Shown piece after piece: positions 32,141 through 49,627 of a stretch of 64,000 bases of DNA. Position 1 is the first letter of the stretch, and every line of letters begins with the position of its first letter. The notes beneath the pieces are model-generated. The model was not told the DNA's origin and searched no databases. It saw nothing but the letters and a program-made list of their open reading frames with translations. The stretch is from Bradyrhizobium zhanjiangense (GTDB lineage Bacteria; Pseudomonadota; Alphaproteobacteria; Rhizobiales; Xanthobacteraceae): NCBI RefSeq assembly GCF_004114935.1, contig NZ_CP022221.1:6655001-6719000 (forward strand). Direction: 5' to 3'. Position numbers and translations under genes: made by a program.

Positions 32141-33682
32141 CTAGATCTTCCGGCCCAGCTGCTCCCAATAGGGATCGCGCAGGCGGCGCTTGAAGATCTT
32201 TCCGGAGTCTTCGCGCGGCAGCCCGGCGCGGATCTCGATGTGCTTTGGCACCTTGTAATCGGCGAGATGGGCTTTCAGGCTGGCGCGTATGGAGGCTTCA
32301 TCGAGCGCGACGCCGGCTTGCGGCTCGACCACCGCCATCAGCGCCTCGCCGAATTCGGCATCGGGGATGCCGAACACCGCGCAATCGTGCACGCCGGGCA
32401 CGGCATGCAGCACGGATTCGATCTCGGCCGGGTAGATGTTGACGCCGCCCGAGATCACCATGTCGCGCTTGCGGTCGCAGATGAAGACGTAGCCGTCCTC
32501 GTCGATATAGCCAACATCGCCGGAGGTGATGAAGCCGTCGCGATCGATCTCGACGCGCTTCTCCGGCTTGTTGTGATAGGTGAAATCGGCCATATCAGGC
32601 ATGCGGGAATAGATCTCGCCGATCTCGCCGACGCCGAGCACGCGGCCGTCCTCGCTGAGGAAGCGCAGCTCGGCGCCGGGCGAGATCTTGCCGACCGTGC
32701 CGGGCTTCTTCAGCGCGTCCTCGGAGGTCGCGAAGGTAACGGCGCCGGATTCGGTCGAGCCGTAGAATTCATAGATCACCGGCCCCCACCATTCGATCAT
32801 GGCGCGCTTGACGTCGGCCGGACATGGCGCGGCGGCGTGGATGACGTGGCGCAGCGAAGAGACGTCGTACGTCTTGCGGACCTGCTCCGGCAGCTTCATC
32901 AGGCGGATGAACATGGTCGGCACCATGAAGATGGTGTCGACCTTGTAGCGCTCGATCAGCTGCAAAAACTCCTCCGCCTCGAAACGCGGCATCAGCACCA
33001 GCGCGCCGCCGAGCTTGCCGGCACGGATGCCGAAAGAATTCGGCGCGGAATGATAGAGCGGGCCCGGCAGCAGCGCGCGGGCGCCGGGCTTGAGCCCGTA
33101 GATCATCGCGCGCATGCGCTCGCCGGCGGCCTGCTGCTCCAGTGTCGGCGCATTGCGGCGGACGCCTTTGGGATGGCCTGTCGTCCCCGAGGTGTAGATC
33201 ATGTTCATCGGCTGCGGCACGACCGGGCCGTCATAAGGCTGGTGCTGCGCGAGCCAGGACTCGAAATCGATTGCGAAGTCCGGCGTCGCCAGATGATGGG
33301 GATCGATCTTGTAGCTGGACAGGATCTCCGGCGGCGTCGGCACGCTGAGCACCGTAACGCCTCTCGGGATCGCATCGCGCAAGGCATGCAGCATATCGGC
33401 ATGTCCGATCAGCACGGACGTGCCAGTATCTCCGAGGATGTAGTTGATCTCCTCCGGCTTGAAATGCCAGTTGATCGGCACGCCATAGGCGCCCAGACGC
33501 ATCGCGGCGTAGGCGGCCTCCAGGAAGGCGATGTCGTTGCGCATCAGCATGCAGACGCAATCACCTGGCTTGACGCCGAGCTTGGCGAGGCCGGAGGCGA
33601 TGCGATCGGCACGGTCAGCGATTTCGGCGTGGGCACGGCGGCCGCCGGAGACGATGCCGAGGAATTGGGACGTTTCGCTCAT
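32141..33682 (-). CDS. acyl-CoA synthetase, AMP-binding (513 aa)
   Basis: Adenylate-forming acid-CoA ligase that activates a carboxylic acid via acyl-AMP. The P-loop-like motif is YTSGTTGHPKGV; A5 is YGSTESGAVTF; A8 is SGDVGYIDEDGYVFICDRKRDM; A10 contains the catalytic Lys (PREDSGKIFKRRL). I placed the start at the ATG at 33682 (MSETSQFLG), because the open frame to 33727 encodes MVSTFLNPTKDR, which looks like leader. Length is normal for a medium-chain or dicarboxylate ligase. It is the last gene on this strand before repeat F and lies downstream of the crotonase at 34654, separated by repeat D4. Confidence 0.88.
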   Translation of the reverse strand: MSETSQFLGIVSGGRRAHAEIADRADRIASGLAKLGVKPGDCVCMLMRNDIAFLEAAYAAMRLGAYGVPINWHFKPEEINYILGDTGTSVLIGHADMLHALRDAIPRGVTVLSVPTPPEILSSYKIDPHHLATPDFAIDFESWLAQHQPYDGPVVPQPMNMIYTSGTTGHPKGVRRNAPTLEQQAAGERMRAMIYGLKPGARALLPGPLYHSAPNSFGIRAGKLGGALVLMPRFEAEEFLQLIERYKVDTIFMVPTMFIRLMKLPEQVRKTYDVSSLRHVIHAAAPCPADVKRAMIEWWGPVIYEFYGSTESGAVTFATSEDALKKPGTVGKISPGAELRFLSEDGRVLGVGEIGEIYSRMPDMADFTYHNKPEKRVEIDRDGFITSGDVGYIDEDGYVFICDRKRDMVISGGVNIYPAEIESVLHAVPGVHDCAVFGIPDAEFGEALMAVVEPQAGVALDEASIRASLKAHLADYKVPKHIEIRAGLPREDSGKIFKRRLRDPYWEQLGRKI

Positions 33683-33733
33683 TTTTGTTTTCCGATCTTT
33701 CGTCGGGTTAAGAAATGTGGAGACCACCAGCCC

Positions 33734-34759: not shown

Positions 34760-35632
34760 ATGTTCAAGGAAAATCTTCTGGCCGGACGGCGCATTCTCGT
34801 CACCGGCGGCGGCACTGGGCTGGGCAAGTCGATGGCGGCGCGGTTCCTCCAGCTCGGCGCCGAGGTGCACATCTGCGGCCGGCGCAAGATCGTGTGCGAC
34901 GAGACCGCGACCGAATTGATGGATCTCCATGGCGGCCGCGTCACCAGCCACGGCGTCGATATCCGCAACGCGCTCGCGGTCGAGGAGATGATCGAGACCA
35001 TCTTTCGCGACGGCCCCCTCACCGACCTCATCAACAATGCCGCCGGCAATTTCATCTCGCGCAGCGAGGAGCTCTCGCCGCGCGGCTTCGATGCCGTCGC
35101 CAACATCGTCATGCACGGCACGTTCTACGTCACCCACGCGGTCGGCAAGCGCTGGATCGCCTTGAAGCAGCCCGGCAACGTCGTCTCGATCACCGTGACC
35201 TGGGTGCGCAACGGCTCTCCTTACGTGGTGCCATCGGCGATGAGCAAGTCGGCAATCCACGCCATGACGATGTCGCTCGCCACCGAATGGGGCCGCTACG
35301 GCATCCGCCTCAACACCATCGCGCCGGGCGAAATCCCGACCGAAGGCATGAGCAAGCGCATCAAGCCCGGTGATGAAGCCGGCGCACGCACCAAGGCGAT
35401 GAACCCGATGGGCCGCGTCGGCACCATGGAGGAACTGCAGAACCTCGCAGTGTTCCTGATCTCCGGCGGCTGCGACTGGATCAACGGCGAGACCATCGCC
35501 ATGGATGGCGCGCAGGCGCTCGCGATGGGCGGCAATTTCTATCAGCTCCGCGACTGGAGCGACGACGACTGGAAAGCCGCGCGCGAGAGCATCATGGCGC
35601 AGAACGAGAAGGACCGGGCGAAGCGGGGGTAG
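34760..35632 (+). CDS. SDR oxidoreductase, 2,4-dienoyl-CoA reductase-like (290 aa)
   Basis: NAD(P)H-dependent reductase with TGGGTGLGK (15-23), LINNAAGNF (90-98) and ITVTWVRNG. The usual YxxxK is replaced: Lys163 is preceded by Ser159 four residues back (PSAMSK), as in the mitochondrial/peroxisomal dienoyl-CoA reductases that use a different Tyr. That, with the AAGNF loop, favours a 2,4-dienoyl-CoA reductase, which removes conjugated double bonds during beta-oxidation of unsaturated acids. SD GGGAG 6 nt before the ATG. It is divergent from the crotonase, with an AT-rich 105-nt gap, and is followed by an acid-CoA ligase after a repeat. Confidence 0.87.
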   Translation: MFKENLLAGRRILVTGGGTGLGKSMAARFLQLGAEVHICGRRKIVCDETATELMDLHGGRVTSHGVDIRNALAVEEMIETIFRDGPLTDLINNAAGNFISRSEELSPRGFDAVANIVMHGTFYVTHAVGKRWIALKQPGNVVSITVTWVRNGSPYVVPSAMSKSAIHAMTMSLATEWGRYGIRLNTIAPGEIPTEGMSKRIKPGDEAGARTKAMNPMGRVGTMEELQNLAVFLISGGCDWINGETIAMDGAQALAMGGNFYQLRDWSDDDWKAARESIMAQNEKDRAKRG

Positions 35633-35637
35633 TTATC

Positions 35638-35759
35638 GTCGTCCCGGCGAAGGCCGGGACCCATACGCACTGAATTTTGTTTGGCGAAGATTGGTCACGA
35701 CCAGTCTTCGTCAAATTGCGTTCAGTGGTTATGGGTCCCGACCGTCGCCGGGACGACGG
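35638..35759. repeat. mosaic palindromic repeat, family D copy 1
   Basis: CGTCGTCCCGGCGAAGGCCGGGACCCATACGC opens; the unit closes with TATGGGTCCCGACCGTCGCCGGGACGACGG. Each arm is a hairpin and the two arms pair. Between two genes of one strand. Confidence 0.75.
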
Positions 35760-35856
35760 CGTTGAGAGAGTTGCGCACTCTCCCTCCCCCACCTTGTCTT
35801 CACCTGCGGATGACGCCACACTTCCCCGCATAAAAACAAGACGCGACGGGAGAAAC

Positions 35857-37434
35857 ATGACCACACAGCCATTGGCCAATCTCGCCGACATGGTGCGCGA
35901 GCGCGCGACAAGCCGCGGCGACGCCATCGCCTACGAGTTCGAGGGCCGCCTCACCAGCTTTGCAGAGTTCGATATCAAGACGAACCAAGTCGCCAACGCA
36001 CTGATCGCGATGGGCGTGAAGAAGGGCGACCGCATCGCCTATCTCGGCAAGAACAGCGACTTCTATTTCGAGCTGTTGATGGGCGCGATGAAGGCCGGCG
36101 TGGTGATGGCGCCGGTGAATTGGCGGCTCGCGGGACCCGAGGTCGCATTCATCGTGGAGGACTGCAAGGCGCCGGTGCTGTTCGTCGGGCCGGAGTTCAT
36201 CACGCTCGTCCGCCAGATCAAGGACAAGCTATCGAGCGTACGGACAATCATCACCACCGAGGGCGGCGCGCCGGAATGGCCGGATTTTGCGGCCTGGCGC
36301 GATGCGCAGAGCGGTGAGGACCCGAAGGTGCCGATCGCTACCCGCGACATCGCGATCCAGCTCTACACGTCGGGCACGACGGGCAAGCCGAAGGGCGCGA
36401 TGCTGTCGCACGCAAACTTCCTTAACCTGGTGCAGTCAGGCAATGCCGAAGACAAGCCGGAGTGGAACCGGTGGTCAACCGACGATGTCTCGCTGGTGGC
36501 GATGCCGGTCTTCCACATCGGCGGTTCGGGCTGGGGCGTGATGGGGCTCTATCACGGCGCGCGCGGCGTGATCGCGCGCGAGTTCGATCCGACAAAAGTG
36601 CTGGATTTCCTCGAGCAGTCGGGGATCACAAAGCTGTTCATGGTGCCGGCGGCGATGCAGTTCGTGGTGCGGCAGCCACGCGCCAGGACAGTCGATTTCT
36701 CGCGCCTGAAATACATGCTCTATGGCGCCTCGCCGATACCAGCGGCGCTGCTGAAGGAGTGCATCGAGGTTTTCAAGTGCGGCTTCGTGCAGCTATACGG
36801 CATGACCGAGACCACGGGCACGATCGTCGCCCTGCCGCCGGAAGACCACGTCGAGGGTCTGGAGCGGATGCGTTCGGCCGGCAAGGCACTGCCGGGCGTC
36901 GAGATCGCGATCCTGGACGTGGACGGCAAGCCACTGCCGCCGCGTGAGGTCGGCGAGATCGCGACGCGCTCCGGCTCGAACATGGCCGGCTATTGGAACC
37001 TGCCCGAGGCGACCGCCGCGACGCTGCGCTCGGACGGCTGGCTGCGCACCGGCGATGCCGGCTACATGGACGAGGACGGCTATCTCTACATCCACGACCG
37101 CATCAAGGACATGATCATCTCCGGCGGCGAGAACATCTACCCCGCCGAGGTCGAGAGTGCGTTGTGCGATCATCCCGATGTCGCCGAGGCCGCCGTGATC
37201 GGCGTGCCCGACGACAAATGGGGCGAGGCGGTGAAGGCCGTCGTGGTGATGAAGCCGGGCAAGCAGGCGAGTGCCACCGACATCATCAACTTCACCCGCG
37301 AGCGCATCGCCGGCTACAAGACGCCGAAGAGCGTGGAGTTCCTGCCGGCGCTGCCGCGCAATCCATCAGGCAAGATCTTGCGGCGGCAATTGCGCGAGCC
37401 GTATTGGGCGGGGAAGGACCGAAGGGTGAATTGA
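35857..37434 (+). CDS. long-chain-type acid-CoA ligase, AMP-binding (525 aa)
   Basis: Adenylate-forming CoA ligase. Motifs: QLYTSGTTGKPKGAMLSH (A3), YGMTETTG (A5), RTGDAGYMDEDGYLYIHDR (A7-A8), ISGGENIYPAEVESAL and NPSGKILRRQLRE with the catalytic Lys. The pattern is that of fatty-acid-CoA ligases of the FadD3/caffeoyl-type group. Start chosen at the ATG at 35857 (MTTQPLANLADMV) with GGGAG 5 nt upstream; the open frame extends to 35677 through a repeat and is not coding there. It lies downstream of the dienoyl-CoA reductase-like gene and before two copies of repeat B, convergent with the acyl-CoA dehydrogenase. Confidence 0.93.
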   Translation: MTTQPLANLADMVRERATSRGDAIAYEFEGRLTSFAEFDIKTNQVANALIAMGVKKGDRIAYLGKNSDFYFELLMGAMKAGVVMAPVNWRLAGPEVAFIVEDCKAPVLFVGPEFITLVRQIKDKLSSVRTIITTEGGAPEWPDFAAWRDAQSGEDPKVPIATRDIAIQLYTSGTTGKPKGAMLSHANFLNLVQSGNAEDKPEWNRWSTDDVSLVAMPVFHIGGSGWGVMGLYHGARGVIAREFDPTKVLDFLEQSGITKLFMVPAAMQFVVRQPRARTVDFSRLKYMLYGASPIPAALLKECIEVFKCGFVQLYGMTETTGTIVALPPEDHVEGLERMRSAGKALPGVEIAILDVDGKPLPPREVGEIATRSGSNMAGYWNLPEATAATLRSDGWLRTGDAGYMDEDGYLYIHDRIKDMIISGGENIYPAEVESALCDHPDVAEAAVIGVPDDKWGEAVKAVVVMKPGKQASATDIINFTRERIAGYKTPKSVEFLPALPRNPSGKILRRQLREPYWAGKDRRVN

Positions 37435-37668: not shown

Positions 37669-38943
37669 CTAATGTTTCCCCGGCCCCATATAGCCGAACA
37701 AAAACCCCGCCACTTTCCGCATCTGGATCTCCTCGCTGCCCTCGGTGATCCTATAACGCCGGTGGTGGCGGTAGATGTGCTCGAACGGCTTGTGGCGTGA
37801 GTAGCCCATGCCGCCGTGGACCTGCATGGCGCGGTCGGCGGATTCGCAGCAGAGGCGGTTTGCCCAGTAGTTGCACATCGAGACGCGGTCGGAAAGCGTG
37901 CGCTCGATCTGCTCCTCGGTGAGCTGGTCCATCTCCCAGGCGGTCTTGCGGATCAGAAGACGCAGCATCTCGGCCTGCGTGGCGAGCTCGACCAGCGGGA
38001 ACTGGATCGCCTGGTTCTCGGCAAGTGCCTTCCCGAACGGCTTTCGCTCGCGCGCGTACTTCACGCTCTCGTTGATGCAGTAGACCGCAGCTCCCAGCGA
38101 GCTCGCGGCCTGCCGGATACGGTTCTGGTGCACGAAGCACTGCGCCAAGGACAGGCCGCGGCCGACCTCGCCGAATAGCGCATCCTCCGGCACGAACACG
38201 TCGGTAAAGCTGACGCGGGGATGGTCGGTCGGCATGTTGAAGGTCCACATGTATTCTTCGACCTTGACGCCGTGGCTCTTCGCCGGCACCAGGAAGCAGG
38301 TGATGCCGCGCGCATCGCCATCATTGCCGCTCGTGCGCGCAAACAGCGCGCAATGCGTGGCGACATGCATGCCGGTCGTCCACATCTTCTCGCCGTTGAT
38401 GATCCAGCCCTTGACGTTATCCCGGGTCGCCGGCACCGCACGCGTCTCCATGTGGGTCGCGTCCGAGCCGTGATGCGGCTCGGTCAAGCCAAAGGTGATG
38501 CGGTACTTGCCTTTGATCGAGCCGTCGATCATCGCCTTCTGGTCGTCGCGGCCGTAGCGGTCGAGCATGGTAACGACGGGGAAATTGCCGACGATGGAGT
38601 GCTCGTTCTGGAGGTCGTTGTGCAGGCCGAGACCCTTTGCGGCAAAATGCTCGCGGATCACGGCCATCCAGAGATTGGAGCCGTCCTTGCCGCCATATTG
38701 CTTCGGCACCGGAAAGCGCAGATGGCCGGCGGCGTCCGCAAGGTCCTTGGCCTTGCGCAGCAACACCTCCCATTCGTGGCGTGGCAGGCCGCCATTCTCG
38801 AAATCGGTGCGCGCCCATTCGCGGCGGTGATCGAAGAAGCGGATGTTGTCGTCGGCTTCTTCCAGCGGCTTGATCTCGCGTTCGATGAAGCGGTCGAGCT
38901 CTCCGAGATAGGCGACGAGATCGGCAGGCAATGAGAAATCCAA
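37669..38943 (-). CDS. acyl-CoA dehydrogenase (424 aa)
   Basis: FAD-dependent acyl-CoA dehydrogenase. Motifs: ITFGLTEPHHGSDATHMET (the substrate/FAD signature), GWIINGEKMWTTG, FTDVFVPEDALFG, the helical C-domain with AMQVHGGMGYSRHKPFEHIYRHHR, and RITEGSEEIQMRKVAG with the catalytic Glu in the usual place. About 425 residues, somewhat longer than short-chain types because of an N-terminal arm (about 1-60). LvaC-like dehydrogenases of this size act on 4-phosphoacyl-CoAs in levulinate catabolism, which the genomic neighbours allow. Single gene on its strand, convergent with the ligase and divergent from the crotonase at 39155. Confidence 0.9.
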   Translation of the reverse strand: MDFSLPADLVAYLGELDRFIEREIKPLEEADDNIRFFDHRREWARTDFENGGLPRHEWEVLLRKAKDLADAAGHLRFPVPKQYGGKDGSNLWMAVIREHFAAKGLGLHNDLQNEHSIVGNFPVVTMLDRYGRDDQKAMIDGSIKGKYRITFGLTEPHHGSDATHMETRAVPATRDNVKGWIINGEKMWTTGMHVATHCALFARTSGNDGDARGITCFLVPAKSHGVKVEEYMWTFNMPTDHPRVSFTDVFVPEDALFGEVGRGLSLAQCFVHQNRIRQAASSLGAAVYCINESVKYARERKPFGKALAENQAIQFPLVELATQAEMLRLLIRKTAWEMDQLTEEQIERTLSDRVSMCNYWANRLCCESADRAMQVHGGMGYSRHKPFEHIYRHHRRYRITEGSEEIQMRKVAGFLFGYMGPGKH

Positions 38944-39154
38944 GGGCTCTCTCCCGGAATGATTTTTCGTTTTGCGTTAAGGCGCTACGCGCATTCTTGC
39001 TTCGCATGATTAAGCGGAGAAGAGCGCATCCAAGTCAAGCAAGCCGAGACGTGTGAGGCGCGCAAGGCGCGCTTGCGCAATTCGATGGTGTTCAGACGCA
39101 CCCGCGCGCTACTATGCCGGCAATATTCCTTCACGAGAAAATGCGGGAGCGATC

Positions 39155-39934
39155 ATGGAGCTGAAATTTTCGAAGGTGGAACGCAAGGGCCCGATCACGA
39201 TCGTCACGCTGTCGCGCCCCGAGGTCTACAACGCGCTGCACACCGATGCGCATTTCGAGCTCAACAAGGTGTTCGACGACTTCTCCGCCGATCCCGAGCA
39301 ATGGATCGCGATCGTCACGGGTAGCGGCGACAAAGCGTTTTGCGCCGGCAACGATCTGAAGTGGCAGGCGGCGGGCGGCAAGCGCGGCTGGGACAAGGGC
39401 GGCTTTGCCGGCCTGACCTCGCGGTTCGACTGCGACAAGCCGATCATCGCAGCGGTGAATGGCGTCGCGATGGGCGGCGGCTTCGAGATCGCGCTGGCCT
39501 GCGACCTCATCATCGCCTCGGAGAACGCGACCTTCGCTCTGCCCGAGCCGCGCGTCGGCCTAGCCGCACTCGCCGGCGGCCTGCATCGGCTGCCACGGCA
39601 GATCGGGCTCAAGCGCGCCATGGGCATGATCCTCACCGCACGCCATGTCAGTGCCAAGGAAGGCCTCGAGCTCGGCTTCGTCAACGAGGTGGTGCCGCAG
39701 GACGAAGCACTCAACGCCGCGCTGCGCTGGGCAGAGATGATCACCAAGAATTCGCCGATGTCGATCCGAGCCTCGAAGCAGGCGATCCAGAAGGGGCTTG
39801 GCGTCTCCCTGGAGCAGGCGATCGAGGAGCAGCGCGAGTATCCGGCGGTGAAGGCGATGGCGGCGTCGCAGGATTACATCGAGGGCCCGAAGGCGTTCTC
39901 GGAGAAGCGGCCGCCGAAATGGGTGGGGAAGTGA
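39155..39934 (+). CDS. enoyl-CoA hydratase (259 aa)
   Basis: Crotonase family with GDKAFCAGNDLKW and NGVAMGGGFEIALACD as oxyanion-hole segments and the catalytic Glu pair region FALPEPRVGLAALAGGLHRLPR. Length is typical. ATG at 39155 is preceded by GGGAG (6 nt), and the earlier open frame to 39053 has no support. The C-terminal FSEKRPPKWVGK is the conserved tail of this family. It is 211 nt from the divergent acyl-CoA dehydrogenase and followed by repeats D2 and B4, so probably monocistronic. Confidence 0.9.
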   Translation: MELKFSKVERKGPITIVTLSRPEVYNALHTDAHFELNKVFDDFSADPEQWIAIVTGSGDKAFCAGNDLKWQAAGGKRGWDKGGFAGLTSRFDCDKPIIAAVNGVAMGGGFEIALACDLIIASENATFALPEPRVGLAALAGGLHRLPRQIGLKRAMGMILTARHVSAKEGLELGFVNEVVPQDEALNAALRWAEMITKNSPMSIRASKQAIQKGLGVSLEQAIEEQREYPAVKAMAASQDYIEGPKAFSEKRPPKWVGK

Positions 39935-39976: not shown

Positions 39977-40080
39977 TGTCATGCCCCGGCTTGACCGGGG
40001 CATCCAGTACGCCGTCGCTTCTCCGTATGTCACTGCCGTCTCTCGAATACTGGATCGCCCGCCTGCGTGGGCGATGACAG
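39977..40080. repeat. mosaic palindromic repeat, family D copy 2
   Basis: TGTCATGCCCCGGCTTGACCGGGGCATCCAGTACGC opens and TACTGGATCGCCCGCCTGCGTGGGCGATGACAG closes; CCCCGGCTTGACCGGGG is a tight hairpin. Same end sequences as the copy at 43908. Confidence 0.8.
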
Positions 40081-40277: not shown

Positions 40278-40655
40278 CTACCCGCCTCGCCCGAGCTCCC
40301 GCTTGTATGACGCGTAATTCGGCTGATCGACTGCGAGCTTGTCCATCGTGGTCGCCCAGAGGTGCTCGGCAAGGCCCGGCGTTGCGAGATCGACCTCGCC
40401 TTTGGCGATGCGATCGGCGAGCGCTTGATTGAGCTCGGCGACGGAGCCGTCCACGCCCAGCAGCGCGCGCAGCCGCTCCACCTCCCGTGCATCGCTCTCC
40501 TCCTCCCGTGTCAACTGCCGCGTGACGAGGTCGAGGATGTTGATGGCGACGCGCAGCTTGAAGGCCTGGTGGCCGGAGATCAGCGGCGTGATGTCGTTGC
40601 GCAAGAAATCTGCGACTGACTTGGTCAGCTCGATCGGTGTGGGTTCGTCCTGCAT
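40278..40655 (-). CDS. DUF6285 protein, LvaB-like (125 aa)
   Basis: Small acidic helical protein (ELTKSVADFLRNDITPLISGHQAFKLRVAINIL ... VARQLTREEESDAREVERLRALLG). It matches the DUF6285 family, which I associate with the small partner of APH-type acyl-CoA kinases (LvaB in Pseudomonas levulinate catabolism); the equivalence is from memory, not from a search. It starts 2 nt after the APH gene stop, so coupling is very tight. ATG at 40655 was chosen; the longer open frame to 40784 is shadow of the kinase. The likely role is to form a complex with the kinase. Confidence 0.75.
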   Translation of the reverse strand: MQDEPTPIELTKSVADFLRNDITPLISGHQAFKLRVAINILDLVTRQLTREEESDAREVERLRALLGVDGSVAELNQALADRIAKGEVDLATPGLAEHLWATTMDKLAVDQPNYASYKRELGRGG

Positions 40656-40657
40656 GG

Positions 40658-41644
40658 TCAACTCCCGCGCGGCGCCAGCAGCCGCAACAGATCGATCTCG
40701 GTCTCGGACGCGCGGCGGCCGATCATGGCGCGCTCCATGGAATGGTCGGGCCCCTCGCGGAACCGCTGCATCATGCCGCCGCACATGATGCCCCAGCGCA
40801 GCGTGCCCATCACTTCCCAGAATTTCACGCGCGCCGGATCGACCTTGCGGCCCGCGGCCTCATAGCCCGCGAACAATTCCTCGCGCGAGCCAAAGCCGCC
40901 GACCGGCTTGTCGATCTCGCCGAAGCGCCAGGAGTTGACGCAGACCCAGCCGAGATCCTCCATGGGATCGCCGAGATGGGCGAGTTCCCAATCTAGGACC
41001 GCACGGACACCGTCGGCGCCGATGATGAGATTGCCGTTGCGGAAATCGCCATGCACCAGCGTCTCCACGGCCGAGGGGCCGGGATCGTGATCGCGCAGCC
41101 AGCGCAGCGCCAGCTCGAACACGGGCTTTGGCCAGTTCAGGCTGCGATAGTCGCGCTCGAACTCGCCGATCTCCTTCGTTGCGGTCATGCGGCGCAGCTC
41201 GGGCAGCTTGTCCAGCGGCAGCCTGTGCAGGCCGGCGAGCACGCCGCCGATCTGCCGCGCGAGATGCGGCCGTGCAGCTGCGAACTCGTCATCGCGAAGG
41301 ATCTTGCGGGCGATGGTCTCGCCCTCGACCCGCTGCATGATGAAGCCGGTGCCGAGATCGTCCTCCGGCGCGAGCACATGCATCACCCGCGGCGACGGCA
41401 CGCCGGCCTCGTATGCGAGCTGCATCAGCTGCGCTTCAGCGGCAAGACCGGCCGCACGCGTTGGCGCAGCGCCATAGCCCTTCGGCGAGCGGCGCAGGAT
41501 CGCGCCGATCGGCCCATCAGGATGCACGACGTCGAAGCGCCAGGTTTCCTGGCTGGCGCCGCCCGAGAGCTTTGCCGCGCCGGTGACGCCGGTCGCACCT
41601 TCGCACCAGCGCACCACGCTGCGGGAGAGTTCCGCCTCGATCAT
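40658..41644 (-). CDS. APH-family phosphotransferase, LvaA/ACAD11-kinase-like (328 aa)
   Basis: Aminoglycoside-phosphotransferase-fold kinase. Catalytic loop HGDFRNGNLII (His and Asp) and metal site AVLDWELAHLGDPMEDL (Asp of the DFG-like triad) are intact, and LSGGASQETW at the N-terminus gives the P-loop equivalent. This form matches the kinase that ACAD10/11 carry fused at the N-terminus, which phosphorylates 4-hydroxyacyl-CoA. The start at 41644 overlaps the crotonase stop as ATGA. It is followed by DUF6285 2 nt later. Antibiotic resistance is unlikely given the context. Confidence 0.88.
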   Translation of the reverse strand: MIEAELSRSVVRWCEGATGVTGAAKLSGGASQETWRFDVVHPDGPIGAILRRSPKGYGAAPTRAAGLAAEAQLMQLAYEAGVPSPRVMHVLAPEDDLGTGFIMQRVEGETIARKILRDDEFAAARPHLARQIGGVLAGLHRLPLDKLPELRRMTATKEIGEFERDYRSLNWPKPVFELALRWLRDHDPGPSAVETLVHGDFRNGNLIIGADGVRAVLDWELAHLGDPMEDLGWVCVNSWRFGEIDKPVGGFGSREELFAGYEAAGRKVDPARVKFWEVMGTLRWGIMCGGMMQRFREGPDHSMERAMIGRRASETEIDLLRLLAPRGS

Positions 41645-42429
41645 TTGCCTTTGAACTGCGCGGGCCGCTTCTCCAGGAACGCGCCGACGCCCTCGCGAAA
41701 ATCCTGGGTGTCGCCGGCGCGGAGCTGGCACTGGAATTCAAGGTTGAGCTGATCCTCGAAGGAATTTTCCGGGCTGTCCCAATAGAGCTTGCGGATCAGC
41801 GACAGCGCGACCGTCGGGCCGCTGGCGAGCTCGCGCGCGAGCTTCATCGCTTCCTCCATCAGCACGCCGTCATCGTAGACGCGGTTGACGAGACCCCATT
41901 CCAGCGCCTTCTCGGCCGGCAGCCGCTCGCCCATCAGCGACAATTCGATCGAGCGCGCCCGGCCGATGAGGCGCGGCAGTAGCCAGGTCGAGCCGCAATC
42001 GGGCACGAGACCGATGCGGCGGAAGGCTTGCAGGAAATACGACGAGCGCGCACACAGGATCATGTCGCCGAGCAGCGCGAAGCTCATGCCGGCGCCGGCG
42101 GCCGGGCCGTTGACCGCAGTGATGATGGGGCAATGCAGGTTGCGGATGCGGCGCAGGAAGGGATGAAAGCCGGTCTCCAGCGTCAGGCCGGCCTTGGTCT
42201 TCTTCGACTGATTGTTGCGGCCCTGGAGATTCGCGCCGGTGCAGAACGCCCGCCCCGCGCCGGTCAGCACGACGCAGCGCACCTCGTCCCTCTTCTCCTC
42301 GATGGTGTCAAGCGCTTCGGCAAGACCGCCCAGCATGTCCAAGGAGACTGCGTTCATCACCTCCTGATGGTCGAGCTTGAGGATCGCGACCGCGCCATCG
42401 AAATCGAGCGTGACGTGTTTGAACTGCAT
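41641..42429 (-). CDS. enoyl-CoA hydratase/isomerase (262 aa)
   Basis: Crotonase family; GRAFCTGANLQGRNNQ and NGPAAGAGMSFALLGDMIL are the oxyanion-hole blocks, and RRIGLVPDCGSTWLLPRLIG holds the site where the second catalytic acid usually lies (Asp in VPDCG). The C-terminus FREGVGAFLEKRPAQFKGK is standard. It opens a three-gene operon with the APH kinase (4-nt overlap) and DUF6285. In the levulinate-like pathway such a protein could hydrate the enoyl-CoA produced after dephosphorylation. Divergent from the SDR at 42597. Confidence 0.9.
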   Translation of the reverse strand: MQFKHVTLDFDGAVAILKLDHQEVMNAVSLDMLGGLAEALDTIEEKRDEVRCVVLTGAGRAFCTGANLQGRNNQSKKTKAGLTLETGFHPFLRRIRNLHCPIITAVNGPAAGAGMSFALLGDMILCARSSYFLQAFRRIGLVPDCGSTWLLPRLIGRARSIELSLMGERLPAEKALEWGLVNRVYDDGVLMEEAMKLARELASGPTVALSLIRKLYWDSPENSFEDQLNLEFQCQLRAGDTQDFREGVGAFLEKRPAQFKGK

Positions 42430-42596
42430 GGTTTCCTCGTCAGTTGCGGGCCTGCGTCAGTTTCGCAGACCGGAATTTGTTTTGCCGGGGCGCATATTTG
42501 ATTTTTGGCGCGGCCTTGTCCATGGTGATCGGGACATAGCAAGCAATCTTGTGCGCAGCGGCTGACGCGCGCCATGCCAAATATGGGAAACGCGCC

Positions 42597-43376
42597 ATGA
42601 ACCTTTTCGACCTCACCGGCCGCGTCGCCGTGATCACCGGCGGCAATGGCGGCATCGGGCTCGGCATCGCGCAGGCGCTCGCCGGCCAGGGCTGCAACGT
42701 CTCGCTCTGGGGCCGCAATCCTGACAAGAACAGAAGCGCTGCCGCGAGCCTGGCCGACCTTGCCGGCAAGGTCGATACCCGCGTCTGCGACGTCACCGAT
42801 CCGGCCTCGGTCAATGCCGCGATGAAGGCGACGCTCGACACGTTCGGCCGGGTCGACGGCTGCTTTGCCAATGCAGGCATCGGCGGCGGCGGCCGGCGCT
42901 CCTTCATCGAGCGCACCGAGGAGGAATGGCGCACGATGTTTTCGACCAATCTCGACGGCGTGTTTCATGCGTTCCAGGCCGCGGCGAAGCACATGACCGA
43001 ACGCGCCAATGCCGGCGATCCCTTCGGCCGGTTGGTTGCCACCTCGAGCCTCGCCTCGATCTTCGGCACCGCGCGCAACGAGCACTATGCGGCGACCAAG
43101 GCCGCCATCAACGCGCTGGTGCGCGCGCTCGGCGTTGAGCTGGCGCGTTACGGCGTCACCGCGAACGCGATCCTGCCCGGCTGGATCAAGAGCGACATGA
43201 CCGCCGGCATCATGGCGAACGACAAATTCGTCGCCAATGTGATGCCGCGCATTCCGGTGCGCCGCTTCGGCGAAGCCTCCGATTTCGGCGGCATTGCCGT
43301 GTATCTGATGAGCAAGGCGTCGTCGTATCACACCGCCGATACGTTCGTGATCGACGGCGGCTATACGGCGTTCTGA
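42597..43376 (+). CDS. SDR family oxidoreductase (259 aa)
   Basis: Classical SDR: TGGNGGIGLG (14-23), ANAG (91-94), catalytic Ser around 150, Tyr164 and Lys168 (EHYAATKAA), and the C-terminal FVIDGGYTAF. The family resembles 3-ketoacyl reductases and hydroxyacyl dehydrogenases. ATG at 42597 was chosen over 42549 because homology begins at MNLFDLTGRVAVIT and GGGAA lies about 8 nt upstream. It could be the ketone reductase (LvaD role) in the proposed 4-hydroxyacyl-CoA route. It is followed by repeat A2. Confidence 0.88.
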   Translation: MNLFDLTGRVAVITGGNGGIGLGIAQALAGQGCNVSLWGRNPDKNRSAAASLADLAGKVDTRVCDVTDPASVNAAMKATLDTFGRVDGCFANAGIGGGGRRSFIERTEEEWRTMFSTNLDGVFHAFQAAAKHMTERANAGDPFGRLVATSSLASIFGTARNEHYAATKAAINALVRALGVELARYGVTANAILPGWIKSDMTAGIMANDKFVANVMPRIPVRRFGEASDFGGIAVYLMSKASSYHTADTFVIDGGYTAF

Positions 43377-43382
43377 TTTTTT

Positions 43383-43470
43383 GTAGGGTGGGCAAAGGCG
43401 CTCTTGCGCCGTGCCCACCATAGGCATCTTCCAATGTCGTGGTGGGCACGCTGCGCTTTGCCCACCCTAC
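43383..43470. repeat. GTGGGCA-type palindromic repeat, family A copy 2
   Basis: Perfect 15-bp arms GTAGGGTGGGCAAAG (43383-43397) and CTTTGCCCACCCTAC (43455-43469), with inner GGCGCTCTTGCGCC hairpin and TGCCCACCAT/GTGGGCACG arms. It lies 7 nt after the SDR stop and 38 nt before the VOC gene. Confidence 0.9.
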
Positions 43471-43507
43471 GGCTTCTCGTTTTGTCAGCGCAGAAGGGAA
43501 TGGGCAA

Positions 43508-43888
43508 ATGTTCTCGCACGTCATGATCGGCACCAACGACTTGGACAAGGCCAAGGCGTTCTACGACAAGCTGCTCGGCACGCTTGAGGTACGGCCGGCC
43601 AGGGTCGACGGCCATCGCATCTTCTACATCACCAAGACCGGTGTGTTCTCGGTGTCGAAGCCGATCAACGGCGAACCGGCGACCTGCGCGAATGGCGGCA
43701 CGATCGGCTTTGCTTGCAATTCGCCGGAGCAGGTCGAGGCTTGGCACGCGGCCGGAGTCGCCGCCGGTGCAAAATCGATCGAGGATCCGCCTGGCATCCG
43801 CCAGGGCCCCGGCGGCAAGCTCTACCTCGCCTATTTGCGTGATCTCGACGGCAACAAGATCTGCGCGATGCATCGGCTGCCGGCGTGA
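43508..43888 (+). CDS. VOC/glyoxalase family protein (126 aa)
   Basis: Vicinal-oxygen-chelate fold with two beta-alpha-beta-beta-beta repeats. HVMIGTNDLDKAKAFYDKLLG is the first metal-binding strand (His), and GKLYLAYLRDLDGNKICAMH is the second module (Asp/Asn in RDLDGNK). The ATG at 43508 follows AGGGA at a good distance. The product may be a dioxygenase, epimerase or detoxifying enzyme; no substrate can be assigned. It could be a methylmalonyl-CoA-epimerase-like helper in this acyl-CoA region, but motifs are generic. Probably transcribed alone, with a repeat on each side. Confidence 0.85.
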   Translation: MFSHVMIGTNDLDKAKAFYDKLLGTLEVRPARVDGHRIFYITKTGVFSVSKPINGEPATCANGGTIGFACNSPEQVEAWHAAGVAAGAKSIEDPPGIRQGPGGKLYLAYLRDLDGNKICAMHRLPA

Positions 43889-43907
43889 GCTAGCTACATC
43901 CACCGCT

Positions 43908-44012
43908 GTCATTCCCCGCGAAAGCGGGGAATCCAGTACGCCGCGGCTTCTCGATTCAATCACTGCGGTCTCTGGAATACTGGATCGCCCGGTCTTCGCC
44001 GGACGATGACAG
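43908..44012. repeat. mosaic palindromic repeat, family D copy 3
   Basis: TGTCATTCCCCGCGAAAGCGGGGAATCCAGTACGC opens and TACTGGATCGCCCGGTCTTCGCCGGACGATGACAG closes. TTCCCCGCGAAAGCGGGGAA is a strong hairpin. It shares ends with the copy at 39977. Confidence 0.85.
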
Positions 44013-44186
44013 CGGAGAGTGAGGCGCGCGCCTGCCGCCTCTCGCCCAGCACCATTCAAACAACATTTCAAACGCCCGCGCAAAATTCCATCGCATGGCA
44101 TGGCGCGCGTGAAAAATGCGTGCTCGCACTTTGGCAGCGCTGCGACTATTCTCCGGCTCAGCAGTCTCAACGATCCGGGAGGAACA

Positions 44187-45464
44187 ATGACAAAACACAC
44201 CTACATTCCCCGCACCACCAACTACACTCTCAATCCCGGCGACGAGCTCAACGACCTCAGGATGTCGGACCAGGTCCGGCCGCTCTATGATCACGTCAAG
44301 AAGTTCATCCGCGACACCGTCGAGCCGATGTCGATCGAGTTTGCCAAGGCTGGCGAGAGCAAGGAGGATCGCTGGAGCTTTACCCCGAAGCAGCTCGAGG
44401 TGCTGGAGAAGGCCAAGAACAAGGCCAAGCAGGAAGGCCTCTGGAACTTCTTCCTGCCCGACGACGAGACCGGCCAGGGCCTGAAGAATCTCGACTACGC
44501 CTATATCGCGGCCGAGCTCGGCAAGAGCCCGCTGGCTTCGGAGACCATGAATTGCTCGGCGCCCGACACCGGCAACATGGAGGTGCTGGAGCGCGTCGGC
44601 ACCAAGGAGCAGAAGGAGAAGTGGCTAAAGCCGCTGCTCAACGGCGAGATCCGCTCGGCCTACGTCATGACCGAGCCGAACGTCGCCTCCTCCGACGCCA
44701 AGAACATCTCGACGACGGCCAAGCTCGTCGGCGACGAATGGGTCATCAATGGCGAGAAGTACTACATCTCAGGTCTCGGCGATCCCCGCTGCAAGATCCT
44801 CATCGTGATGGTGAAGACCAATCCGGATGCGCCGCCGAGCAAGCAGCAGTCGCAGATCCTGGTGCCGCGCGACACGCCCGGCGTCGAGGTGCTCGGCCCC
44901 ATGTACGTGTTTGGCCAGGACCACGCCCCGCGCGGCCACATGCATATGCGCTTCAACAACGTCCGCGTGCCGAAGGAGAACATGCTGCTCGGCGAGGGCC
45001 GCGGCTTCGAGATCTCGCAGCTCCGCCTCGGACCGGGGCGCATCCACCATTGCATGCGCACCATTGGCAAGGCCGAGAAGGCGCTCGACCTCATGGTGCA
45101 GCGTGGCCTCACCCGCGAGGCCTTCGGCAAGAAGATCGCCCATCTCGGCGGCAACATGCAGATCATCGCGCAGGCGCGCTGCGAGATCGAGGCGATGCGG
45201 CTGATGGTGCTGAAGGCGGCGAAGGCGATGGATGTGCTCGGCAACAAGGAGGCCCGCGTCTGGGTCTCCATGGTCAAGGCCATGGTGCCGGAGCGCGCCT
45301 GCAAGATCATCGACCAGGCGATCCAGATGCACGGTGCCACCGGCATCTCGCACTGGACCCCGCTGGCCGAGATGTACCAGGACGTCCGTCACCTGCGCTT
45401 CGCCGACGGCCCGGACGAGGTGCACTGGATGGTGGTGGGGCGCCACGAGTTGAGCATGGCGTGA
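44187..45464 (+). CDS. acyl-CoA dehydrogenase, ACAD10/11-like (425 aa)
   Basis: FAD acyl-CoA dehydrogenase whose motifs match those I remember for mammalian ACAD11: CSAPDTGNMEVLER, YVMTEPNVASSDAKNI, GEGRGFEISQLRLGPGRIHHCMR and the C-terminal LRFADGPDEVHWMV. In ACAD10/11 the same domain works with an APH kinase on 4-hydroxyacyl-CoA; here the kinase is a separate gene at 40658-41644. SD GGGAGGA 6 nt before the ATG at 44187. The plus-strand open frame runs to 44019 but lacks homology. Length and fold are complete. Preceded by repeat D3, so it may have its own promoter. Confidence 0.9.
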   Translation: MTKHTYIPRTTNYTLNPGDELNDLRMSDQVRPLYDHVKKFIRDTVEPMSIEFAKAGESKEDRWSFTPKQLEVLEKAKNKAKQEGLWNFFLPDDETGQGLKNLDYAYIAAELGKSPLASETMNCSAPDTGNMEVLERVGTKEQKEKWLKPLLNGEIRSAYVMTEPNVASSDAKNISTTAKLVGDEWVINGEKYYISGLGDPRCKILIVMVKTNPDAPPSKQQSQILVPRDTPGVEVLGPMYVFGQDHAPRGHMHMRFNNVRVPKENMLLGEGRGFEISQLRLGPGRIHHCMRTIGKAEKALDLMVQRGLTREAFGKKIAHLGGNMQIIAQARCEIEAMRLMVLKAAKAMDVLGNKEARVWVSMVKAMVPERACKIIDQAIQMHGATGISHWTPLAEMYQDVRHLRFADGPDEVHWMVVGRHELSMA

Positions 45465-46792: not shown

Positions 46793-47926
46793 ATGAAATC
46801 GCCGATCTGCGACATGCTGGGCATCGAGTTCCCGCTGCTCGCCTTCAGCCATTGCCGCGATGTCGTTGCCGCCGTCAGCCGCGCCGGCGGCTTCGGCGTG
46901 CTGGGCGCCACTGTGCACACGCCCGATACGCTCGAACGCGAACTGAAGTGGATCGACGATCACGTCGACGGCAAGCCCTACGGCATCGACGTGCTGATCC
47001 CCGAAAACATCTCCACCGCAGGCGAAAAGGACGTCACCTGGAAGAGCCTGGAGGCGCGCGTGCCGCAAGAGCACCGCGACTACACACGCGATCTTCTGAA
47101 GAAATACGATATCGAGCTGACCGCCACTGAAGTGGCAGACAATCAGCCGCAACCGTTCGACGGGAAGACCGCACTTCAATTGCTCGAGGTCTCCTTCAAG
47201 CATCCAATCCGCTTAATCGCAAATGCGCTGGGCGTGCCGCCGAAGGCGATGATCGAGATGGGCAAAAAGCATGGCGTGCCCGTTGCCGCACTTGTCGGCG
47301 CCAAGGAGCACGCACTGCGCCAGGTCGCGGCCGGCGTCGACATCCTCGTCGTGCAGGGCACCGAGGCCGGTGGCCATTGCGGCGAGGTCTCGACCATGGT
47401 GCTGGTGCCGGAGGTGATCAAGGCGATTAAGCCGATCCGCGACGTGCCGGTGCTGGCGGCCGGTGGCATCATGACCGGACGGCAGATGGCGGCCTGCATG
47501 GCGATGGGCGCGGCCGGCGCCTGGACCGGCTCGGTGTGGCTGGCCACCGTCGAGGCCGAGACCACGGAGATTTTTCGCGAGAAGATGATCGCGGCGTCCT
47601 CGCGCGACGCGGTGCGCTCGAAGGGCCGTACCGGCAAGCCGGCACGGCAGCTTCGCTCGGTCTGGACCGATGCCTGGGACCGCGCGCCGGACAGCCCGGG
47701 CGCGCTGCCGATGCCGCTCCAGAGCATCATCAGCCGCGACGCTTTCAACTCGATCGACCGCGCGGCGGCGAGCGGCAACGCCAAGGCGCGCGATCTCGTC
47801 AGCTATTTCGTCGGCCAGGGCGTCGGGTTGATCGACAGCGTGAAATCGGCCGGCGCCGTGGTGCAGGAGTTCAAGGAAGAGTTCGCCGAAGCCGTCGAGC
47901 ACATGAATGCGCTGGTGGCGGAGTAA
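46793..47926 (+). CDS. nitronate monooxygenase family protein (377 aa)
   Basis: FMN-dependent TIM-barrel enzyme of the 2-nitropropane dioxygenase/NMO type. Seen: VVAAVSRAGGFGVLGA at the N-terminus (phosphate/FMN loop), QGTEAGGHCGEVSTM (signature with His), VPVLAAGGIMTGRQM and GAAGAWTGSVWLAT. Family members oxidise alkyl nitronates or reduce enoyl-type quinones and acyl carriers; the actual substrate is not set by sequence. SD GGGAGAG just before the ATG at 46793. It is transcribed alone after 269 nt of non-coding DNA and followed by repeat G. Confidence 0.9.
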   Translation: MKSPICDMLGIEFPLLAFSHCRDVVAAVSRAGGFGVLGATVHTPDTLERELKWIDDHVDGKPYGIDVLIPENISTAGEKDVTWKSLEARVPQEHRDYTRDLLKKYDIELTATEVADNQPQPFDGKTALQLLEVSFKHPIRLIANALGVPPKAMIEMGKKHGVPVAALVGAKEHALRQVAAGVDILVVQGTEAGGHCGEVSTMVLVPEVIKAIKPIRDVPVLAAGGIMTGRQMAACMAMGAAGAWTGSVWLATVEAETTEIFREKMIAASSRDAVRSKGRTGKPARQLRSVWTDAWDRAPDSPGALPMPLQSIISRDAFNSIDRAAASGNAKARDLVSYFVGQGVGLIDSVKSAGAVVQEFKEEFAEAVEHMNALVAE

Positions 47927-48112: not shown

Positions 48113-49627
48113 ATGAACAACTCCTCTATCCCCGCAGACCGCATCCCCGTTATCGTCGGCATCGGCGAGATCGTCGACCGTCCCAAGGAGATCACGGATG
48201 GCCTCGAGCCGCTCGATCTCCTGGAACAGGCCCTGCGCCGCGCGGAAGCAGACGCCGGCGCAAAGCTGCTCGGCGAGGTGCAATCGCTCGACGTCGTCAA
48301 CTTCCTGAGCTGGCGCTATCGCGATCCGGAGAAGCTTTTGGCGCATCGGCTCGGCATCTCGCCGTCGCATTGCTACTACGGCCCGGTCGGCGGCGAGAGC
48401 CCGATCCGCTACATCCACGAAGCCGCAAAGCGCATCGCGCGGGGTGAATGCACCGTGGCGGCCATCTGTGGCGCCGAGGCGCAGTCGACCGTGACCAAGG
48501 CAGAGCGCGCCGGCGTCAAGCTGCCGTGGACGCCGTTCGCGCACGACGTCGAGGAGCCCAAGCGCGGCGCGGCGTTCCAGAAGCCGCTCGCTGTGAAGCT
48601 CGGCGTGTTCCGCCCCGTCACCGTCTATCCGTTCTATGAGGCGGCCTCCTCCGCGCATTGGGGCCAGACGCCGCGCGAGGCGATGGCGGAATCCGGCACG
48701 CTGTGGTCGCGCTATTCGGAAGCCGCCGCACAGAATCCCAACGCCTGGCTGAAGCGGCGCTATGCGCCTGACGAGATCACGACGCCGACCGCGGACAACC
48801 GCCTGATCGCGTGGCCCTACAACAAGCTCATGGTCGCCAATCCCAGCGTCAACATGGGCGGCGCGCTGCTGCTCACGAGCCTCGCCAAGGCGCAGGCCGC
48901 TGGGATCGCCGAGGACAGACTGGTCTATCCGCTCGGCGGCGCCTCGGCGGAGGAGCCGCGCGACTATCTCCTGCGCGACCAGTTCTACGAGAGCCACCCG
49001 CAGAACGCGGTGCTGAAGGCCGTGATGGACCTCGCCGGCGGCGACGGCAAACAGTTCGACGCCATCGAGCTCTACAGCTGCTTTCCGTGCGTGCCCAAGA
49101 TGGCGCGGCGGACGCTGGGCCTGGGCGTCGACGTGCAGCCGACCGTGACCGGCGGCCTCACCTTCTTCGGCGCCCCGCTCAACACCTACATGACGCACGC
49201 GGCCTGCGCGATGGTCCGCCGCGTGCGCGACGGCGCCAAGCTCGGCCTGCTCTACGGCCAGGGCGGCTTCGTCACCAAGCATCATGCGCTGGTGGTGTCG
49301 AAGACGCCGCCGCACGAGGCGCTGGTGCAGGAGACGAGCGTGCAGGCGGTGGCGGACCGCAACAAACGCACGGTGCCGGAGTTCGTCACGGAGGCAACTG
49401 GCAAAGGCAAGGTCGAGAGCTTTACCGTGCTCTACGGCCGCGGCGGCGACGTCGAGCACGGCGTGGTGATGCTGCGCACGGAAGACGACCGGCGCACGCT
49501 CGCGCGGATTCCGGCGAGCGACAGCGCGACGCTGGCGCATCTGCTCAACATGGATCGCACGCCGGTAGGCTCACGCGGCGAGATCACAATGGCCACCGAC
49601 GGGGTGCCGGAGTGGCGGGTGGTGTAG
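48113..49627 (+). CDS. thiolase-like protein, TLP1 type (504 aa)
   Basis: Thiolase-fold protein with N-terminal ADRIPVIVGIGEIVDRP, GPVGGESPIRYIHEAAKRIARGE, an AICGAEAQSTVTKAER strand, the GGLTFFGAPLNTYMTHAA segment and a C-terminal extension from about residue 395 that looks like the extra domain of thiolase-like protein type 1. The CxSG nucleophile motif is not obvious, so it may lack conventional thiolase activity. ATG at 48113 is followed by MNNSSIP and homologous sequence. Presumably part of the acyl-CoA catabolic set. Ends 6 nt before repeat A3. Confidence 0.88.
   Translation: MNNSSIPADRIPVIVGIGEIVDRPKEITDGLEPLDLLEQALRRAEADAGAKLLGEVQSLDVVNFLSWRYRDPEKLLAHRLGISPSHCYYGPVGGESPIRYIHEAAKRIARGECTVAAICGAEAQSTVTKAERAGVKLPWTPFAHDVEEPKRGAAFQKPLAVKLGVFRPVTVYPFYEAASSAHWGQTPREAMAESGTLWSRYSEAAAQNPNAWLKRRYAPDEITTPTADNRLIAWPYNKLMVANPSVNMGGALLLTSLAKAQAAGIAEDRLVYPLGGASAEEPRDYLLRDQFYESHPQNAVLKAVMDLAGGDGKQFDAIELYSCFPCVPKMARRTLGLGVDVQPTVTGGLTFFGAPLNTYMTHAACAMVRRVRDGAKLGLLYGQGGFVTKHHALVVSKTPPHEALVQETSVQAVADRNKRTVPEFVTEATGKGKVESFTVLYGRGGDVEHGVVMLRTEDDRRTLARIPASDSATLAHLLNMDRTPVGSRGEITMATDGVPEWRVV

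Follow-up and report, generated by a model that had tools for sequence, protein, structure and literature searches.

A kinase-DUF6285 gene pair with two acyl-CoA dehydrogenases in Bradyrhizobium zhanjiangense: a candidate phosphorylation-dependent route for hydroxylated acids

We analysed a window of 64,000 nucleotides from Bradyrhizobium zhanjiangense (contig NZ_CP022221.1, positions 6,655,001 to 6,719,000; host genome 9.34 Mb) which carries genes for an APH-fold kinase, a DUF6285 protein, an acyl-coenzyme A (acyl-CoA) dehydrogenase of the ACAD11 type and a second acyl-CoA dehydrogenase, here called ACADa. Comparison with other genomes identified ACADa, which lies outside the range covered by the first-pass annotation of this DNA (40278-45464), as the most conserved partner of the kinase-DUF6285 pair. 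The evidence supports the view that this pair is of the LvaA/LvaB type and would act as a two-subunit hydroxyacyl-CoA kinase. That it works in one pathway with two specialised dehydrogenases, the ACAD11-type enzyme removing phosphate and ACADa oxidising, is a reading that we consider about evenly poised between right and wrong. Taken together, the pattern suggests a so far undescribed form of a known degradation route for hydroxylated acids; systems of this class are already known, and what is new is the conserved Glu-type partner.

The kinase and its DUF6285 partner

The kinase matches Pfam APH (E 1.9e-35) and has intact HGDFRNGN and DWE motifs, with the catalytic HGD, N and DWE kept, as the first-pass annotation had described; the positions it gave for the genes of the kinase, the DUF6285 protein and the ACAD11-type dehydrogenase were likewise correct. 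The sequence also bears out the coupling that it reported, in which the stop of a crotonase gene and the start of the kinase gene overlap in ATGA and the DUF6285 gene starts 2 nucleotides past the kinase stop (Table 1). A role as an aminoglycoside resistance enzyme was considered and rejected, as the kinase reaches only 30.5 bits with the NCBIfam APH(3') model, whose cut-off is 205.

The DUF6285 protein matches PF19802 with E 1e-32. An lva operon on the P. aeruginosa plasmid NZ_MF344569.1 (L112), found with the L067 kinase as query, runs in the order regulator, kinase, lvaB, dehydrogenase, short-chain dehydrogenase/reductase (SDR), ligase, DUF485 protein and symporter, and its gene annotated 'lvaB: 4-hydroxypentanoyl-CoA kinase subunit LvaB' also encodes a PF19802 protein (E 4.8e-24); DUF6285 is therefore the LvaB family. 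NCBIfam has no match for either the window DUF6285 protein or the annotated LvaB, and thus speaks neither for nor against LvaB membership. In a set of 36 loci chosen for DUF6285 (33 outside the genus, the window and two from Bradyrhizobium, with the non-genus G128 and G196 left out), an APH kinase adjoins or is fused to DUF6285 every time, and in ten of them (L069, L070, L072-L074, L076-L080) both share a single reading frame, such fusions being found in, among others, Gammaproteobacteria, Gordonia and a sphingomonad. Exceptions to this adjacency are Nonomuraea (L118), where the two genes are about 5 kb apart, and two loci chosen for ACADa (L150, L188), which show DUF6285 and no kinase match within the stretch examined.

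In a kinase tree of 59 rows (midpoint root only, one Nocardia kinase present twice, long-branch flags on L049, L104 and the haloarchaeal rows), the kinases of DUF6285 loci, including LvaA, form one clade (40 rows, 100/97) apart from the ACAD10/11-type kinases. Within this clade, nine rows make up an LvaA subclade (100/99) and 31 rows the window subclade (88/85, short of the star level of the tool). The window kinase thus groups with LvaA, as the kinship to LvaA/LvaB proposed from the sequence would have it, and not with the kinases that accompany canonical ACAD11-type genes.

A residue pattern suggests what DUF6285 may contribute. According to the accessible part of PMC12440821, Arg176 and an Arg next to the alphaC Glu make the contacts with CoA in models of the ACAD11 kinase. 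Both positions are Arg in 13/13 ACAD10/11-type kinases, and by alignment the window kinase has Lys and Ala there; Arg at the 176 site was found in none of the nine LvaA-type and none of the 31 window-type kinases of the DUF6285 clade, and it is present in both APH45-type kinases, in L104 and in all three haloarchaeal kinases. Among the loci examined, no kinase that keeps Arg176 has its own DUF6285, and the kinases linked to DUF6285 lack that Arg. As R86 of the paper does not map cleanly onto the Arg neighbouring the alphaC Glu (the 176 site does), and as distant kinase rows are difficult to align around position 176, the pattern is best taken as a lead, but it suggests that DUF6285 supplies substrate recognition to its kinase. 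In P. putida, growth on levulinate requires LvaB, which contacts LvaA (PMC6692424); the accessible part of that paper gives LvaB no mechanism, for which the residue pattern provides a direct hypothesis. The DUF6285 protein was modelled as all-helical, with a predicted local distance difference test score of 85.9 for the best of five models (range 64.0-85.9) and a predicted template modelling score of 0.60.

On a Thermus oshimai plasmid (L049), genes for an LvaC-class dehydrogenase, a kinase, DUF6285 and a histidine phosphatase stand in a row, and in P. citronellolis a histidine phosphatase gene adjoins lvaA, according to the accessible part of PMC6692424.

Two dehydrogenases with different active-site residues

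Against solved chains the ACAD11-type protein scores 374-393 bits with ACAD11, 371 with the unnamed 4hr3 and 138 with the next, 1ukw, and it carries RLGPGRIHHCMR and ADGPDEVH. In mouse ACAD11, R626, H634 and R637 hold the phosphate and D753 is the catalytic base, and non-conservative changes of R626, H634 or R637 are described as the most disruptive to ACAD10/11 dehydrogenase domains (PMC12440821, accessible part). By alignment these four correspond to R280, H288, R291 and D407 of the window's ACAD11-type protein, and by these residues its assignment to the ACAD10/11/LvaC kind is supported. All four are present in 36/36 proteins of the class typed by GRIHHCMR (37 rows, the window protein standing twice) and in 9/9 of the LvaC class typed by RLTHCMR; because the HCMR motif itself served to choose both classes, independent evidence comes only from the first Arg and the Asp. 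ACADa proteins, which were chosen by score alone, have F, Q, S and E at the four sites in 19/19 cases (S in 17, G in one and A in one), and none of them has any of the four hallmark residues. The window thus holds one dehydrogenase with the residues for eliminating phosphate and another without them.

Each of the three classes occupies one side of a branch in the dehydrogenase tree. ACADa was recovered as sister of the HCMR dehydrogenases at 99/96, but at 88/77 after adding six ordinary dehydrogenases from the same genome (a tree that retained 7/18 'other' rows and, for the three classes, 10, 6 and 10 rows), which makes this placement tentative.

ACADa accompanies the kinase-DUF6285 pair across genomes

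We examined co-inheritance in a phylum sample of 299 genomes, assumed from shared identifiers to lie inside the 398 genomes searched for DUF6285. ACADa (E 1e-100) occurs in 19 of these, and DUF6285 in all 19 (Fisher p 1.3e-24; 8e-17 and 12/12 without the genus; relatedness ignored), while the remaining seven DUF6285 genomes all match LvaC at E 1e-80. Only about five candidates were scored per genome in the ACAD11, ACADa and LvaC searches, which makes absences less sure than presences. The two genes can be far apart, more than 0.8 Mb in G197 and G278 and on different contigs in G133, G205, G314 and G343, and the link is therefore not solely one of shared transfer.

Within Bradyrhizobium, DUF6285 is present in 55/60 genomes, 53 of which have ACADa and 52 the ACAD11-type gene. 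ACADa is on the DUF6285 strand in 53/53 genomes and at most 3 kb away in 52, with a median gap of 1179 nucleotides, compared with 3641 for the ACAD11-type gene. The exceptions are all drafts: DUF6285 occurs without ACADa in G030 and G045, and ACADa without DUF6285 in G016. In one Bradyrhizobium genome (G053, C1:2583909-2584183) the DUF6285 match is broken into two pieces in different frames.

The association was also seen in a scan of public genomes with ACADa peptide patterns, blind to the kinase, which yielded 80 loci (L119-L198; actinobacteria, proteobacteria and others), the best 80 of the 588 that likeness to a Nocardia ACADa confirmed. A kinase lies within 3 kb of ACADa in 57/80 loci (within 500 nucleotides in 55, on the same strand in 54/57), and in 47 of the 63 loci that have 3 kb on both sides; kinase and DUF6285 are in one frame in 37/80. 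Beyond 3 kb the stretches gave only four kinase matches, and 21 of the 23 genomes with a kinase-less ACADa locus have DUF6285. A Glu-type dehydrogenase is thus tied to an LvaAB-type kinase in actinobacteria and in alpha- and gammaproteobacteria. The word DUF6285 was not found in the literature searched, and among the matches listed no title or abstract opening dealt with a DUF6285-ACADa pairing; subscription papers, the original lva paper included, were outside this search.

The ACAD11-type dehydrogenase as a looser partner

The subfamily of the window's ACAD11-type protein, taken at 72% identity or above, is present in 14 genomes of the 299-genome sample, 13 of which have both DUF6285 and ACADa (the exception being G251); co-occurrence with DUF6285 gives a Fisher p of 7e-15, or 2e-7 without the genus. 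In a member of the Pseudomonadales (L229) such a gene lies 1.3 kb from a fused kinase-DUF6285 gene, and in two Actinomycetota (L161, L177) ACAD11-type proteins of 624 and 658 bits are encoded 1.2 and 2.3 kb from ACADa, with DUF6285 elsewhere in the genome. When further ACADa genomes were checked (seven gammaproteobacterial and 14 actinobacterial, L153 left out), the best ACAD11 match kept all four residues in 20/21, and a window-type gene was found in 5/7 of the gammaproteobacteria. In 20 canonical ACAD11-type loci (L092-L111), 12 have a kinase of another subfamily and none has DUF6285. Co-inheritance therefore truly supports the pairing of the kinase with the ACAD11-type dehydrogenase, but as a looser link than that of the kinase with ACADa; outside Bradyrhizobium the two are seldom adjacent.

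A proposed pathway and its alternatives

Proceeding from gene identities, clades, residues, adjacency and co-inheritance, all of them observed, we would arrange the enzymes as follows. One of the nearby ligases would make the acyl-CoA substrate, for which we infer a 4-hydroxy acid as the source; the kinase, with the DUF6285 protein as its second subunit, would phosphorylate a hydroxyl, most likely at C4; and the ACAD11-type enzyme would remove the phosphate to give a 2-enoyl-CoA. ACADa, with its Glu base and without phosphate-binding residues, would oxidise the same carbon skeleton in an obligatory reaction, either as a dedicated step before or after the elimination or within an open form of the ACAD10/11 cycle that ends with the dienoyl-CoA-reductase-like SDR. 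The two crotonases, the SDRs and the thiolase-like protein would take the product through beta-oxidation. The neighbouring genes were considered for a clue to the substrate and no candidate emerged. If this proposal is right, phosphorylation-dependent beta-oxidation extends beyond levulinate and mammalian 4-hydroxy acids.

Several observations weigh against this proposal. The window-type ACAD11 gene seldom adjoins the kinase outside Bradyrhizobium: no kinase is near it in any of nine loci (L081-L089) or of four others (L230-L233), all in stretches of 18-19 kb, in L057 the kinase is 15 kb away, and none of the 14 actinobacterial ACADa genomes has the window-type gene, their ACAD11-type genes being more divergent. 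ACAD11-type dehydrogenases are also common (85/299 genomes), and their presence alongside ACADa is therefore a weaker clue. The ACADa pattern has exceptions of its own: DUF6285 was not found in 2/23 genomes with a kinase-less ACADa locus, the ACADa gene of L117 has no kinase within 7 kb of it, ACADa was not seen in 16/27 stretches around non-genus kinases of the window subclade, and the Thermus locus of that subclade has an LvaC-class gene in its place. Lastly, the window kinase scores only 32-52 bits against solved kinases (3dxp 52, ACAD11 42).

The strongest competitor, possible if somewhat unlikely, is that the kinase works with ACADa alone on phosphorylated or hydroxylated acyl-CoA, and that the ACAD11-type enzyme is a Bradyrhizobium neighbour fed by another kinase, for example the one at 4.16 Mb of the host genome. 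ACADa is indeed the adjacent partner in actinobacterial and proteobacterial loci, shares the strand throughout the genus and also adjoins different APH kinases, in haloarchaeal plasmids and at 5.01 Mb of the host genome; moreover, G347, from another genus of the same family, has the cluster with no copy of the ACAD11-type gene in 19 kb, its best copy elsewhere being 56% identical. Against this, ACADa lacks the four residues tested, and all 19 ACADa genomes of the 299 also encode an ACAD11-type dehydrogenase at E 1e-70.

We find it improbable that ACADa is a third, so far undescribed class of kinase-coupled dehydrogenase, performing the ACAD10/11 reaction in an open form, with the internal steps proposed for ACAD10/11 (PMC11342911, accessible part) split among separate enzymes. 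ACADa would then oxidise the 4-phosphoacyl-CoA with a normal Glu base and hand the electrons on, loss of phosphate would give a 2,4-dienoyl-CoA to be reduced by the 2,4-dienoyl-CoA-reductase-like SDR, and DUF6285 would stand in for the CoA-binding Arg absent from its kinases.

Equally doubtful is a plain equivalent of LvaABC or ACAD10/11, with the kinase, DUF6285 and the ACAD11-type enzyme alone acting on a 4-hydroxy or 4-oxo acid and ACADa an ordinary beta-oxidation neighbour. The identity of LvaB with DUF6285, the hallmark residues and the co-occurrence of the ACAD11-type subfamily with DUF6285 all speak for it, but ACADa is tied more tightly to the kinase, in 19/19 as against 13/14 genomes, by its shorter gap in the genus and by the nearby kinase in 57/80 ACADa loci. 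Finally, that the kinase phosphorylates a sugar, choline or a drug amid a loose collection of beta-oxidation genes is very improbable: APH-fold kinases are diverse and the NCBIfam matches weak and varied, but no kinase equivalog approaches its NCBIfam cut-off (34.9 bits at best), the clade is shared with LvaA and the conserved partners are acyl-CoA dehydrogenases.

Comparison with known systems

The proposed two-dehydrogenase pathway resembles the lva operon of P. putida, and its homologue L112, in having a kinase with a DUF6285 subunit, an HCMR-type dehydrogenase, an SDR and an acyl-CoA ligase. It differs in that LvaC is of another dehydrogenase class, the kinases fall in different subclades, and the window set has ACADa and crotonases in addition and is spread over both strands, so that there is no single LvaABCDE operon of kinase, DUF6285, LvaC-class dehydrogenase, SDR and ligase. 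Between the L112 LvaC (not that of KT2440) and the ACAD11-type protein of the window, identity is 33%, in contrast to the 62% and 56% identity of LvaC to ACAD10 and ACAD11 given in the accessible part of PMC11342911. No LvaC match was found in the host genome at E 1e-80 (6/65 candidates scored).

With mammalian ACAD10 and ACAD11 the window shares the HCMR residues and catalytic Asp of its ACAD11-type protein (393 bits to ACAD11), but its kinase lies outside their kinase clade and has no Arg176. A better counterpart is found at 4.16 Mb of the host genome (L044), where a kinase adjoins an HCMR-type dehydrogenase, as in the window, with no DUF6285 in the 20 kb examined; this kinase scores 408 bits with 3dxp and 251 with ACAD11, far above the window kinase. 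The 4.16 Mb pair is therefore the genome's ACAD10/11 counterpart, and the earlier view of the window kinase and ACAD11-type dehydrogenase as separated halves of ACAD10/11 is not supported. LvaB goes unmentioned in the accessible parts of the mammalian papers (PMC11342911, PMC12440821), and mammals were not searched for DUF6285.

An ACADa-family dehydrogenase is also found beside an APH-fold kinase at 5.01 Mb of the host genome (L045) and in haloarchaeal plasmids (L114-L116), with the difference that these kinases belong to other subfamilies and no DUF6285 was recognised. The L045 stretch (C1 5,004,001-5,024,000) holds a ligase, SDRs, the ACADa-like dehydrogenase (60% identical to the window's), the APH kinase and a CoA-transferase-like gene (95 bits); a gene for a periplasmic binding protein lies close by. 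In the haloarchaeal plasmids, a gene for a 159-amino-acid protein of no recognised family stands between those of ACADa and the kinase, and hydantoinase/acetone-carboxylase-like genes adjoin in 2/3; the idea that this protein is a DUF6285 homologue found no support (hhalign probability 2.6%, no Pfam DUF6285 match in the 2/3 scanned).

Locus layout and neighbouring genes

The first-pass annotation had treated the genes as one set within a 17-kb island. The coupling of kinase and DUF6285 stands, but the ACAD11-type gene is on the opposite strand and therefore in a separate transcription unit. Recent acquisition of the island was considered and rejected: GC content is 0.63-0.67 across 32-52 kb of the window against 0.65 for the whole window, there is no tRNA in the 64 kb, and the core genes are nearly genus-wide. 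Around the kinase, DUF6285 and ACAD11-type genes are two acyl-CoA ligases, two SDRs, a VOC gene, a second crotonase, nitronate-monooxygenase-family and thiolase-like genes, and ACADa (Table 1).

Table 1. Genes of the cluster, with positions in the window
Feature	Position	Strand	Basis
Acyl-CoA ligase, PRK12406 subfamily	32141..33727	-	NCBIfam NF009071 922 bits, cut-off 701
SDR, 2,4-dienoyl-CoA-reductase-like	34760..35632	+	NCBIfam NF005811 233 bits, under cut-off 318
Acyl-CoA ligase, PRK06187 subfamily	35677..37434	+	NCBIfam NF004837 663 bits, cut-off 476
ACADa, acyl-CoA dehydrogenase with a Glu base and no HCMR residues; the kinase's most conserved partner	37669..38943	-	
Crotonase between ACADa and DUF6285, opposite strand	39053..39934	+	Pfam ECH_1
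DUF6285 protein, LvaB family; probable second kinase subunit	40278..40655	-	PF19802, LvaB kinship, fusions
APH-fold kinase, LvaA-like (DUF6285-associated clade)	40658..41644	-	Pfam APH, clade, catalytic motifs
Crotonase PRK05981, ATGA-coupled to the kinase	41641..42429	-	NCBIfam NF004635 484 bits, cut-off 351
SDR oxidoreductase of the cluster	42597..43376	+	
VOC/glyoxalase-like protein	43508..43888	+	
ACAD11-type (HCMR) acyl-CoA dehydrogenase, probable 4-phosphoacyl-CoA eliminating enzyme	44187..45464	+	
Nitronate-monooxygenase-family protein	46793..47926	+	also in the cluster of L059 (other genus, same family)
Thiolase-like protein (TLP1)	48113..49627	+	also in L059

Some of these neighbours recur at other loci. 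A homologue of the ATGA-coupled crotonase (389 bits) comes after ACADa in L052, homologues of the plus-strand crotonase (388-540 bits) are found in L052, L059, L090 and L091, and in L189 a 371-bit homologue of the dienoyl-CoA-reductase-like SDR is encoded at a distance of 3.5 kb from ACADa and a fused kinase. The kinase genes are flanked by two copies of an intergenic repeat (39985-40061 and 43914-43991), with two blocks that are 79% and 94% alike, and a DUF772/DDE-type transposase is encoded outside the cluster at 26802-28214.

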